NCBI GenBank assembly: GCA_002835545.1
Contig: PIZK01000001.1
Location: forward strand, 62,001-126,000
Reading direction: 5' to 3'
From: Alteromonadales bacterium alter-6D02
GTDB taxonomy: Bacteria > Pseudomonadota > Gammaproteobacteria > Enterobacterales > Psychrobiaceae
Length of the DNA: 64,000 bases
Of this stretch, positions 3,287 to 6,478 are shown one piece after another. The translations under genes were made by a program, and so were the position numbers. Numbering within the stretch: the stretch's first letter is position 1; the number at the start of each line of letters is the position of its first letter. The notes below the pieces were generated by a model. That model saw only the letters and a list, made by a program, of their open reading frames with translations. It ran no database searches and was not told the DNA's origin.

Positions 3287-4072
3287 TTAATCAGTACTAA
3301 TGTGACTAACCATGTCATTGTTAATCCAAAATTGCAGACGTTTAAGTGCTTCAACAGGAACCTGCTCTTCATGACAATAGTCGGTTAATAATTCACAAGC
3401 ATGGCTAAAGTCATTGCCATCGTTAAAACTTTGCCATAACACTTGGCTGATAGGGTCAATATTGGCGAACTCTGTCAAACGTTGCTCGTTACGCCACACT
3501 AACCAGAAAACTCCAAGCGGGTAATCTTGTGCTGGAGGGGGAGCTGTATCAGTTTTTAATGCTTGCCATGACTCAACAGCATTGGTGAGCTGAGTGAACA
3601 ATCTACAACTGGGATGAAAAGTGAGTTTTATATCAGGCCACCGATCAATTTCAATGTTCGACAAAGCGTCCATTTTGGCTACCGGCTTATCTGCGGCGTC
3701 AAATGCATCTAAAAGGGTTCGTTCGAACTTTGCTAAATCAGTTAATATTGGGTGTGATGAAAATGGTCGCTGTGTGGCTAAATATTGAGGGATGTTGTGA
3801 CAAAAGTGACGCAGCGATCTAACCTTGGACGGGTAAGTGGCTACATAACCATCCACAAGCGCATCATACAGTTCATCGCCTAAATATTTACCAAGTTGCG
3901 GATGATCGTTATCAATTGTTTCACGAAGGCGCATTTTATAAGCATTTTTATAAATACCAAGGCGGGTATCTATTGTCACAGGTGGCTGGTTTATGACGTT
4001 GTCAGAAAATGAATTACTCTTTCCTTGTAAGTAATCTAAAAATTGTTGCTGGATTAATGCTAAGTCAGGCAT
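3287..4072 (-). CDS. bufC: BufC/HvfC-type partner of the RiPP iron oxidase (DUF2063)
   Basis: 261 residues, third gene of the bufferin operon, with its start overlapping the end of the oxidase gene by 8 bp. The N-terminal half (QQQFLDYLQG, then RLGIYKNAYKMRLRETIDNDHP and LRHFCHNIPQYLA) is the DUF2063 'putative DNA-binding' domain. In this setting it is known as the recognition partner that brings the precursor peptide to the DUF692 oxidase; DNA binding is not its expected role here. The C-terminal half (LGVFWLVWRNEQRLTEF) is the HvfC-type wing. Role is by family and context. No DoxX-like bufD gene follows, although that gene is often present in such operons. Confidence 0.85.
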   Translation of the reverse strand: MPDLALIQQQFLDYLQGKSNSFSDNVINQPPVTIDTRLGIYKNAYKMRLRETIDNDHPQLGKYLGDELYDALVDGYVATYPSKVRSLRHFCHNIPQYLATQRPFSSHPILTDLAKFERTLLDAFDAADKPVAKMDALSNIEIDRWPDIKLTFHPSCRLFTQLTNAVESWQALKTDTAPPPAQDYPLGVFWLVWRNEQRLTEFANIDPISQVLWQSFNDGNDFSHACELLTDYCHEEQVPVEALKRLQFWINNDMVSHISTD

Positions 4073-4928
4073 TGATGATTTCCTTATCAGAGAGCGCTAA
4101 GCTAGGGATGTGTTTCGCCGCAATTTTTCTAGCCATATCAAGTTCATTAACTAACTCATTGAGAGAAGGGATATTATCGTCACGCTCTATCATCGTGCTG
4201 ACCTTCCCTAAGCGTTGAACAGCGCTTTCATAAAGTGACCAAACTGGGTCACAGATAGGGTGGTCATGCGTGTCAATCACATAGTCGCCGTAGTCCTGAT
4301 GGCCAGCGAGGTGGATTTGTCGAACACGAGTTTTATCGATGGCATTTAGGTAATCTAAAGCGTTAAATTGATGATTACGTGCGCTAACGTAGATATTGTT
4401 GATATCAAGCAGCATGTAGCAATCGGCGCGTTGGCACACTTCGTTGTAAAAATCCCATTCTGACAATTCAGAGCTTTGATAGGTTAAATAGCTGGAAACA
4501 TTTTCGAGTAGCATCTGTTGGCCAAGAGTGTCTTGAACTTGCCGTATACGCGCTGCAATATGGTCGATAGCCTCTTCGGTATAAGGCATAGGTAACAGAT
4601 CATGACTATTGACATTGCCCGCTTGGCTAAAGCACAAATGATCGGAAATCCAACGGGGCTTTACATGGCTAATCAACTTTTTTAAGTTGGTTAGATATTG
4701 CTGATCAAGCGGGGTTACGCTGCCTACTGACATTGATACACCATGCATCACAATAGGGTATTGTTCCGCGATAGCGTCTAAATAATAGCGAGGCTTACCA
4801 CCGTCAACCATAAAATTTTCGGAGATTATTTCGAACCAGTCAACCTTGGGCTTGCTCGATAATACATCTTCGAAGTGTTGTGTTCGAAGGCCCAAACCAA
4901 AACCTAAAAAGTGATCATGATGCGTCAT
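4065..4928 (-). CDS. bufB: Multinuclear non-haem iron oxidase BufB (DUF692) modifying Cys residues of the precursor
   Basis: 287 residues, a TIM-barrel of the DUF692/MNIO family. These enzymes use two or three iron atoms and O2 to convert cysteines of a ribosomal peptide, for instance to thiooxazoles or oxazolone/thioamide pairs. Expected metal-ligand blocks are all present: VMHGVSMSVG (H), ISDHLCFSQ (D/H), LLENVSSYL (E), LLDINNIYVSA (D/N), IHLAGHQD (H), DTHDHP (D/H) and MIERDDNIP (E). The N-terminus FLGFGLGLRTQHF is the usual GxGLR start. It lies between the precursor and DUF2063 genes, all on the minus strand, with a hairpin separating it from the precursor. Cytoplasmic enzyme; the precursor is probably exported afterwards. 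Confidence 0.92.
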   Translation of the reverse strand: MTHHDHFLGFGLGLRTQHFEDVLSSKPKVDWFEIISENFMVDGGKPRYYLDAIAEQYPIVMHGVSMSVGSVTPLDQQYLTNLKKLISHVKPRWISDHLCFSQAGNVNSHDLLPMPYTEEAIDHIAARIRQVQDTLGQQMLLENVSSYLTYQSSELSEWDFYNEVCQRADCYMLLDINNIYVSARNHQFNALDYLNAIDKTRVRQIHLAGHQDYGDYVIDTHDHPICDPVWSLYESAVQRLGKVSTMIERDDNIPSLNELVNELDMARKIAAKHIPSLALSDKEIINA

Positions 4929-5014: not shown

Positions 5015-5488
5015 CTAGGCGTCAGTATTACCACCAATATCCTTACATGAAGCGGCGGTTGTTGCGACAAAACCTAGCCCTTGACATGATGCCATGCCTT
5101 TACATGCGTTGGTTGCTGTTTTGCAATCATTATGGCCTTTACAGATATTAACGCCGTAACAATGTACTAAATCGACTTTGGTTGTTTTTCCTATCCAGTT
5201 ATCTTTAATGTTGCCACCGACGTCCATACAGGCTTGACTTGGCATAGCGACGAAACCGTGACCTTTACAGCTTGCCATACCTTTGCAACCATTACTTGCC
5301 GTTTTACAGTCGTTATGCCCTTTACAGGTGTTTACACCGTAGCAATGTACGAGTTCGACTGTACTACTAGCTGCTTTCGAGGCGGCGTTATTTGCAGTTG
5401 TTTCTGTAGTGGCTTGGCAGCCCATTAGGGTCGCTGCAGCCATAGCAAGGGTCGCACCACCAATTTTTGTCTTTAATTGTGAGCTCAT
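5015..5488 (-). CDS. bufA2: BufA2-like bufferin precursor with a duplicated Cys-rich core and a lipobox
   Basis: 157 residues from the ATG at 5488, chosen because AAAGGAA lies 8 bases before it; an in-frame ATG ten codons upstream has no such site. Residues 1-24 form an export signal ending LMGC, a good lipobox, so the protein may be a lipoprotein. Two copies of one Cys-rich core follow at about 44-92 and 105-153, each with six Cys in the same spacing (C-x5-C-x5-C-x6-C-x5-C-x12-C). Each opens with VHCYGVN, continues CKGHNDCKTA and CKGMASC, and closes with GG. All Cys pairs are offset by exactly 61 residues. This is the BufA2 family of periplasmic metal-binding RiPPs, thought to sequester copper or similar metals, whose members as I know them carry one core. 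It is the first gene of the bufA-bufB-bufC operon. A 7-bp inverted repeat (AAGCGAT/ATCGCTT) lies in the upstream region near 5529 and 5579. Confidence 0.85.
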   Translation of the reverse strand: MSSQLKTKIGGATLAMAAATLMGCQATTETTANNAASKAASSTVELVHCYGVNTCKGHNDCKTASNGCKGMASCKGHGFVAMPSQACMDVGGNIKDNWIGKTTKVDLVHCYGVNICKGHNDCKTATNACKGMASCQGLGFVATTAASCKDIGGNTDA

Positions 5489-5625
5489 TGAGGTATTCCT
5501 TTTGTTAGGTTCTATCATATAGACCGATTAAGCGATAAAAACTTTCACCGCTAAATAAAAAGCTTACTAGTTTAGTGTAATCGCTTTTTTTAAAATTGTA
5601 GTAATAACTCGCTACTGGTCTAGAC

Positions 5626-5694
5626 TTTCCGTTATGGAAAATAGTAACTTGCCATGTTGGAAAGTCTGTATTACATTAGTTTCCAACATGGAAA
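5626..5694. promoter_or_regulatory. Three copies of a TTTCC-N5-GGAAA palindrome before the membrane protein/regulator operon
   Basis: Sites at 5626-5640 (TTTCCGTTATGGAAA), 5649-5663 (TTGCCATGTTGGAAA, one mismatch) and 5680-5694 (TTTCCAACATGGAAA). Centres are 23 and 31 bp apart, about two and three helix turns, so bound dimers would face the same side. The last site ends 17 bp before the start codon of the downstream gene. The winged-helix protein encoded second in the operon is the obvious candidate binder. Also, 5652-5663 and 5680-5691 are perfect reverse complements, allowing a hairpin in the leader RNA. Confidence 0.6.
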
Positions 5695-5711
5695 CTAAGG
5701 AAGCGAAAAAA

Positions 5712-6194
5712 ATGACCATACCAGATAAATCAATTTCAGCAGCGGAAGCAAAGTCAGCACTCGCCGCATTAGAAAAAACAAATAGCAATTTAATCAAGAC
5801 TTGTCGTCCTCCGATTGGCCTTGCGCTAGTGGCGGCATTTTTAATCGGATTAGAAACATTGGCGATTTCATTAGGCATGGCAAGCGATGGCTGGCGATTA
5901 CTGATGTTTAGCTCAGCAATCGGTTTAGTGGTGACTTTATTTTTATGGGTCAAGTCTTTACGAAAACATGGCGTGGCCATGCAACTTTGTCCAAAAACGA
6001 CAGCGGACCGAATTTTTGGCGCGTTGCAAGCGGTGTTTGTGATTATCATGATGATCGGCTCACAGCTTTTATTTAAACAAGGCATTGAGTGGCCAAGCTA
6101 CGTTGCCGCACTGATTAATGCCGTGTTTTTATTGTATATAATGTATTATCATCCAACAGGCCGTTGGGTTGAGAAGCAAGGAGAGGGCGAATGA
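5712..6194 (+). CDS. Four-helix inner-membrane protein cotranscribed with a winged-helix regulator
   Basis: 160 residues from the ATG at 5712, chosen because AAGGAAG lies 8 bases before it. In-frame ATGs at 5634 and 5689 lie inside the palindromic operator sites and lack ribosome sites. After a soluble N-terminus (IPDKSISAAEAKSALAALEK) four hydrophobic segments are visible: PIGLALVAAFLIGLETLAIS, WRLLMFSSAIGLVVTLFLWV, IFGALQAVFVIIMMIGSQLL and YVAALINAVFLLYIMYYH. I recognise no characterised family. Its stop overlaps the start of the next gene by 4 bp (ATGA), a sign of translational coupling. Such small membrane proteins paired with an HTH gene may act as the regulator's sensor or target, but that is inference. 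Confidence 0.7.
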   Translation: MTIPDKSISAAEAKSALAALEKTNSNLIKTCRPPIGLALVAAFLIGLETLAISLGMASDGWRLLMFSSAIGLVVTLFLWVKSLRKHGVAMQLCPKTTADRIFGALQAVFVIIMMIGSQLLFKQGIEWPSYVAALINAVFLLYIMYYHPTGRWVEKQGEGE

Positions 6195-6478
6195 GCGAAG
6201 GATTTGATCCATTAATCCATGCACCAAACCGTTTAAAAGTTTGTGCGCTGCTAGAAGCAACTTCTGCGATGGAATTTAAAGCGGTTAAAGATCACCTTGA
6301 AGTGAGTGACTCCGTCTTATCTAAGCAGATAAAGCAACTGGAGGAAGTAGGTTATGTCATTGTCGAAAAGCGTCAACAAAATGGTCGAGTGTATACATGG
6401 TTACAGCTATCAACATTAGGCCGCAGCGCCTTTCGTGGCCATGTTCTAGCGCTGAAACAAATTGTTGGAGAGATGTAA
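6191..6478 (+). CDS. Winged-helix transcriptional regulator (ArsR/MarR-like, HTH_34 type)
   Basis: 95 residues, a single compact winged-helix domain: LIHAPNRLKVCALLEAT (helices 1-2), FKAVKDHLEVSDSVLSKQIK (recognition helix) and GYVIVEKRQQNGRVYTWLQL (wing). This length and pattern match stand-alone HTH_34/'transcriptional regulator' proteins that act as dimers. There is no sensor domain and no conserved metal-binding Cys motif, so its signal is unknown. It overlaps the preceding membrane-protein gene by 4 bp. It probably represses its own operon through the three TTTCC-N5-GGAAA sites upstream; that is inferred from position, not shown. Confidence 0.85.
   Translation: MSEGFDPLIHAPNRLKVCALLEATSAMEFKAVKDHLEVSDSVLSKQIKQLEEVGYVIVEKRQQNGRVYTWLQLSTLGRSAFRGHVLALKQIVGEM

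Follow-up and report, generated by a model that had tools for sequence, protein, structure and literature searches.

The gene at positions 5015-5488 of the window, the whole 64,000-nt stretch of DNA analyzed here, encodes a putative BufA2-type bufferin precursor in which an earlier note recognized two complete six-Cys cores behind a lipobox. This raises the question of whether a double, membrane-anchored metal trap is unusual among bufferins, and of how such a gene would be controlled. The features on which the answer depends are as follows.

3287..4072, minus strand: bufC, DUF2063 partner protein, overlapping bufB by 8 nt (PF09836, 57 bits against a cut-off of 27.2)
4065..4928, minus strand: bufB, MNIO-family bufferin maturase (NF050167, 387 bits against a cut-off of 310; PF05114, 381 bits)
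5015..5488, minus strand: bufA2, two-core BufA2 bufferin precursor of 157 aa (NF050166 match and two-core relatives)
5045..5161, minus strand: core 2, residues 110-148, six Cys, 61 residues from core 1 (72.4-bit match; direct repeat)
5228..5344, minus strand: core 1, residues 49-87, six Cys (84.7-bit match to the BufA2 model)
5417..5488, minus strand: lipoprotein signal peptide, residues 1-24 (PROSITE-type lipobox rule; alignment)
5417-5428, minus strand: lipobox L21-M22-G23-C24, followed by Gln (agrees with the PROSITE-type rule)
5521..5547, minus strand: ECF-type promoter-like element TGAAA-N16-CGGTCT, 27 nt, lying 32 nt before the bufA2 start codon (sole match in the window, 0.11 expected)

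The open reading frame at 5015-5488 is real. It starts at 5488 with a protein beginning MSSQLKTK, in agreement with the coordinates first assigned to it; a second in-frame ATG lies upstream at 5518, where the relatives do not start. In a profile search with the 157-aa product, the NCBIfam BufA2 model NF050166 scored 147.6 bits against a cut-off of 60, in two stretches, and the BufA2 identity was thus borne out. The product has Cys residues at positions 24, 49, 55, 61, 68, 74, 87, 110, 116, 122, 129, 135, and 148, a lipobox Cys followed by twice six core Cys with equal spacing; of the two layouts that define the family, one core with 6 conserved Cys or two cores with 12, it shows the second. 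Each core alone scored above the BufA2 cut-off. The duplication is also seen in the DNA, as two 114-nt copies with 75% identity and a start-to-start spacing of 183 nt, a two-copy repeat that Tandem Repeats Finder did not pick up. Given this DNA-level repeat and the separate above-cut-off match of each core, the duplication did not arise by chance, and the claim of two cores with identical Cys spacing and a 61-residue offset was confirmed. The six Cys of core 1 and the six of core 2 are all invariant across 38 aligned proteins.

Since bufB (MNIO) and bufC (DUF2063) lie directly downstream of bufA2, in the order bufABC, the operon is complete. The HvfC model gave just 45.4 bits on bufC (cut-off, 142), and no DoxX gene was found beside the operon. 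Among the two-core relatives, bufB adjoins bufA in 79/80 and bufC is present in 78/80. Because the BufA2, BufB, and DUF2063 models all scored above their cut-offs, we read the locus as bufferin-2; with high confidence, it is a complete bufA2-bufB-bufC operon, with a precursor of the already known 12-Cys type that carries a lipoprotein signal and would work as a copper trap. On the other side of the intergenic region shared with bufA2, a divergent pair at 5634-6478 (plus strand) encodes a 186-aa membrane protein and an HTH_34 regulator; these were rejected as parts of the system, being near bufA2 in 0/80 relatives. In Alteromonadaceae M269, one two-core BufA2 gene (L072) has no bufB or bufC within 3 kb, and the other copy in the same genome (L052) has both; the L072 product is possibly a stand-alone precursor modified in trans.

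The double, lipidated form had been presented as unusual, on the premise that BufA2 precursors have one core after a Sec signal. This premise is wrong. According to Antoine et al. (2025, PMC12452194), 90% of Buf2 precursors contain 6 conserved Cys and the remaining ~10% contain 12, and about 16% have lipoprotein signal peptides; their model of a 12-Cys member shows the six-Cys domain in duplicate, with a Cognaticolwellia aestuarii protein in the figure, and the family was originally named Buf_6/12Cys. Lipidation is predicted for a subset of bufferins and has been demonstrated for another MNIO product, DybA (PMC12636315). In our survey, the best 80 relatives in the genome collection were two-core without exception (80/80), and 53/80 of these loci had a lipobox. 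Their hosts are Shewanella, Colwellia, Amphritea, Marinobacterium, Motilimonas, Marinicella, and other mostly marine Gammaproteobacteria. The double-core lipobox BufA2 is therefore a widespread marine gammaproteobacterial form that is already published, and the claimed novelty falls away; such relatives are the very result that the earlier note had named as one that would refute its claim.

The core offset was 61 residues in 80 of the 82 distinct two-core proteins used for the offset and lipobox counts, and a lipobox was present in 56/82 by our own pattern and in 49/82 by a stricter PROSITE-type rule. In an even class sample, all BufA2 proteins read from loci (41/41) were single-core. Sampled single-core proteins had a lipobox in 6-8/42, and 6 of 41 is close to the published 16%. 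The lipobox was more frequent in two-core (56/82) than in single-core proteins (6/42; Fisher p 1e-8); we do not claim a functional link from this excess, because the two-core proteins were selected for their similarity to the window protein and are related to one another. In a tree of the cores, whose 206 rows and 48 columns are too short to settle a single duplication, 2 changes separate single-core from two-core proteins; core 1 and core 2 are interleaved, and core 2 as one clade was not rejected (p-AU 0.405). Two loci hold odd BufA2 relatives outside the two-core group (L004, on G047 contig 21, and L182): one 183-codon frame with 14 Cys, and one locus with neighboring precursor genes with and without a lipobox.

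Compared with known systems, the window precursor is closest in design to 12-Cys Buf2 (for example C. aestuarii WP_077285100, PMC12452194), which likewise has duplicated six-Cys domains, a Sec or lipoprotein signal, and the bufABC order. The C. aestuarii relative in our set (L075) is 58% identical to the window BufA2, with an equal 61-residue offset and a lipobox. No major precursor difference was seen; the window protein only has Gln after Cys 5 of core 2, which is common to most of its genus. Single-core BufA2 of the Legionella WP_010947964 type shares the six-Cys motif and the MNIO/DUF2063 partners but differs in its one core, its less frequent lipobox, and the lack of the promoter element in 38/38. 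The DybA RiPP-lipoproteins (PMC12636315) also place an MNIO product on a lipoprotein signal, one whose lipidation is established, but they have a different precursor and macrocycle/hydantoin instead of thiooxazole chemistry.

By rule and alignment, the N-terminus of BufA2 is a Sec signal with a K-containing n-region, a hydrophobic h-region, and a lipobox. Cys24 falls within the 15-35 range of the PROSITE-type rule, with positive charge near the N-terminus, and its column is conserved in most full-length relatives; Met ahead of Gly-Cys is tolerated in a lipobox, although it is not the commonest residue. The suggestion that a signal ending in LMGC fits lipoprotein processing is thus supported, and the window BufA2 is probably membrane-anchored. 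In E. coli, the residue after the lipobox Cys (Asp or not) guides sorting between inner and outer membrane. Since Asp follows this Cys in none of the two-core lipobox proteins, the outer membrane would be the likelier destination by that rule. A free periplasmic double-core bufferin, in which LMGC is incidental and signal peptidase I cuts further on, has a precedent in the 26-33/82 two-core relatives with AxA-type signals and no lipobox, largely from Shewanella and Motilimonas. However, Cys24 sits exactly where the relatives alternate between LAGC, LMGC, or LAAC and AxA sites, and every genus member read retains the lipobox, so we consider this form decidedly unlikely for the window protein. 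The lipobox is missing from about a third of two-core relatives, which mostly have AxA-type signals at the same place; anchoring is thus not essential to the two-core form.

The number of modified Cys calls for similar weighing. The earlier note counted 12 modifiable Cys, which is an interpretation rather than an observation and, by analogy with Buf1, probably an overcount. In Buf1, the first and last Cys pair in a disulfide and the central Cys are modified (PMC12452194). In this family, Lys is the usual residue after Cys 2, 3, and 5 of each core, Ala, Lys, or Gly comes after Cys 4, and Tyr/Phe after Cys 1; the last Cys is followed by A/G/D in most relatives and, in core 2 of the window protein, by Lys. 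On the Buf1 pattern and these neighboring residues, eight modified Cys (four central per core), two disulfides, and one lipidated Cys are probably a better guess than twelve modified. That all 12 core Cys are modified, giving a trap without disulfides, would agree with their invariance in the alignment and with the Lys after the last Cys of core 2, but it is unlikely given the Buf1 arrangement and the residues that flank the first and last Cys of each core. An AlphaFold model (38 sequences) was of middling quality (mean pLDDT 67.6), ordered in blocks round the outer Cys of both cores and low in confidence round the central Cys of core 1; this picture is loosely compatible with eight modified Cys and outer disulfides, and the model carries no information on Cys chemistry. 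It is also conceivable that core 2 is a decaying copy that contributes no separate function, as Gln replaces Lys after its Cys 5 in most of the genus. Yet all six of its Cys are invariant, it is conserved like core 1 (mean identity 0.735 between core 2 copies and 0.751 between core 1 copies), and the 61-residue offset is almost always kept, which makes decay very improbable.

For the two-core lipoprotein reading, we propose that BufB with BufC would oxidize the central Cys of both cores, probably four in each and mostly in Cys-Lys motifs, to thiooxazoles in the cytosol, and that the peptide would then be exported by Sec. Cys24 would receive its diacylglyceryl group and signal peptidase II would cleave off the signal; as Gln rather than Asp follows Cys24, the peptide would probably be sent to the outer membrane, where the two tandem cores may bind excess copper. 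Thiooxazoles, copper, duplicated domains, and lipoprotein signals of bufferins all have a basis in the literature (PMC12452194).

Comparison of the sequence upstream of bufA2 in near relatives brought out the conserved element TGAAA-N16-CGGTCT. A tighter form, TGAAANTTTT-N10..13-GGTCT, has four matches genome-wide: before bufA2, before a bufferin-1 operon (upstream of L112 1195), at the start of an ECF sigma/DUF3379 operon (L184 1501-1528, minus strand), and at one apparently unrelated site. The bufferin-1 operon (L112 1195-3705, G000 contig 19) is complete, with a DUF2282 precursor (bufA1), an MNIO, a DUF2063-like protein, and DoxX. The pattern comes from the bufA2 sites; the bufA1 and ECF sites, on which it was tested afterward, are therefore the independent support. 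With the strict pattern in the 250 nt upstream of each gene (at most 0.02 expected per set), the element was found in the genus before bufA2 in 6/6, bufA1 in 9/9, and ECF in 9/10; the same promoter element thus stands at the sigma gene and at its candidate targets, where about 0 would be expected. It also preceded 11/76 other two-core bufA2 genes, and no match lay ahead of single-core bufA2 (0/38), second bufA1 copies in the genus (0/4), or bufA1 of other families (0/11). A relaxed pattern was found before 24/76 other two-core bufA2 genes (0.57 expected) and at 10/10 ECF genes of other families, in the latter inside the annotated N-terminal coding region, where protein conservation could contribute. 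The -10 part of the element at the sigma gene coincides in part with a possible TTG start codon, which makes the true start uncertain. In other families (L201-L211), a short N-terminal extension (KK...TV..DM) of the ECF sigma gene is encoded by DNA that retains the GAAA-N17-CGGTC spacing; the matching DNA of the window's genus opens with an in-frame stop (the TGA of TGAAA) and is no longer coding.

A known case of ECF sigma control concerns bufferin-1 (DUF2282), which like BufA2 is an MNIO-modified, Sec-exported copper trap but has four Cys and a different precursor family. In Caulobacter, sigma F controls bufferin-1 operons via GTAACC-N16-CGAA (PMC3511200), and the system carries an NrsF-type (DUF1109) anti-sigma. 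Neither this site nor NrsF (PF06532) was found in the window's genome, and NrsF/sigma-F control of the window bufferins was rejected because PF06532 is absent. Sigma and NrsF genes have been found in Buf1 but not in Buf2 clusters (Antoine et al., PMC12452194). From the shared element, we consider it probable that both bufferin operons are under the control of the DUF3379-paired ECF sigma factor, whose gene lies about 113 kb away, and that this factor acts via a TGAAA-N16/17-(C/A)GGTCT promoter; bufA2 transcription would then be switched on from elsewhere in the genome, by the same sigma factor as the bufferin-1 operon. The DUF3379 partner is likely the anti-sigma; no mention of DUF3379 was found in the literature searched. 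So far, this candidate regulator has been found with the two-core lineage. Given the different Caulobacter site, the absence of NrsF here, and the lack of sigma genes in Buf2 clusters, a trans regulator common to both bufferin types and paired with DUF3379 would be an addition to what has been described. If true, Buf2 operons, reported without sigma-factor genes, would gain a regulator acting from elsewhere in the genome, and the element offers a testable regulatory link between two bufferin families and an uncharacterized ECF/DUF3379 pair.
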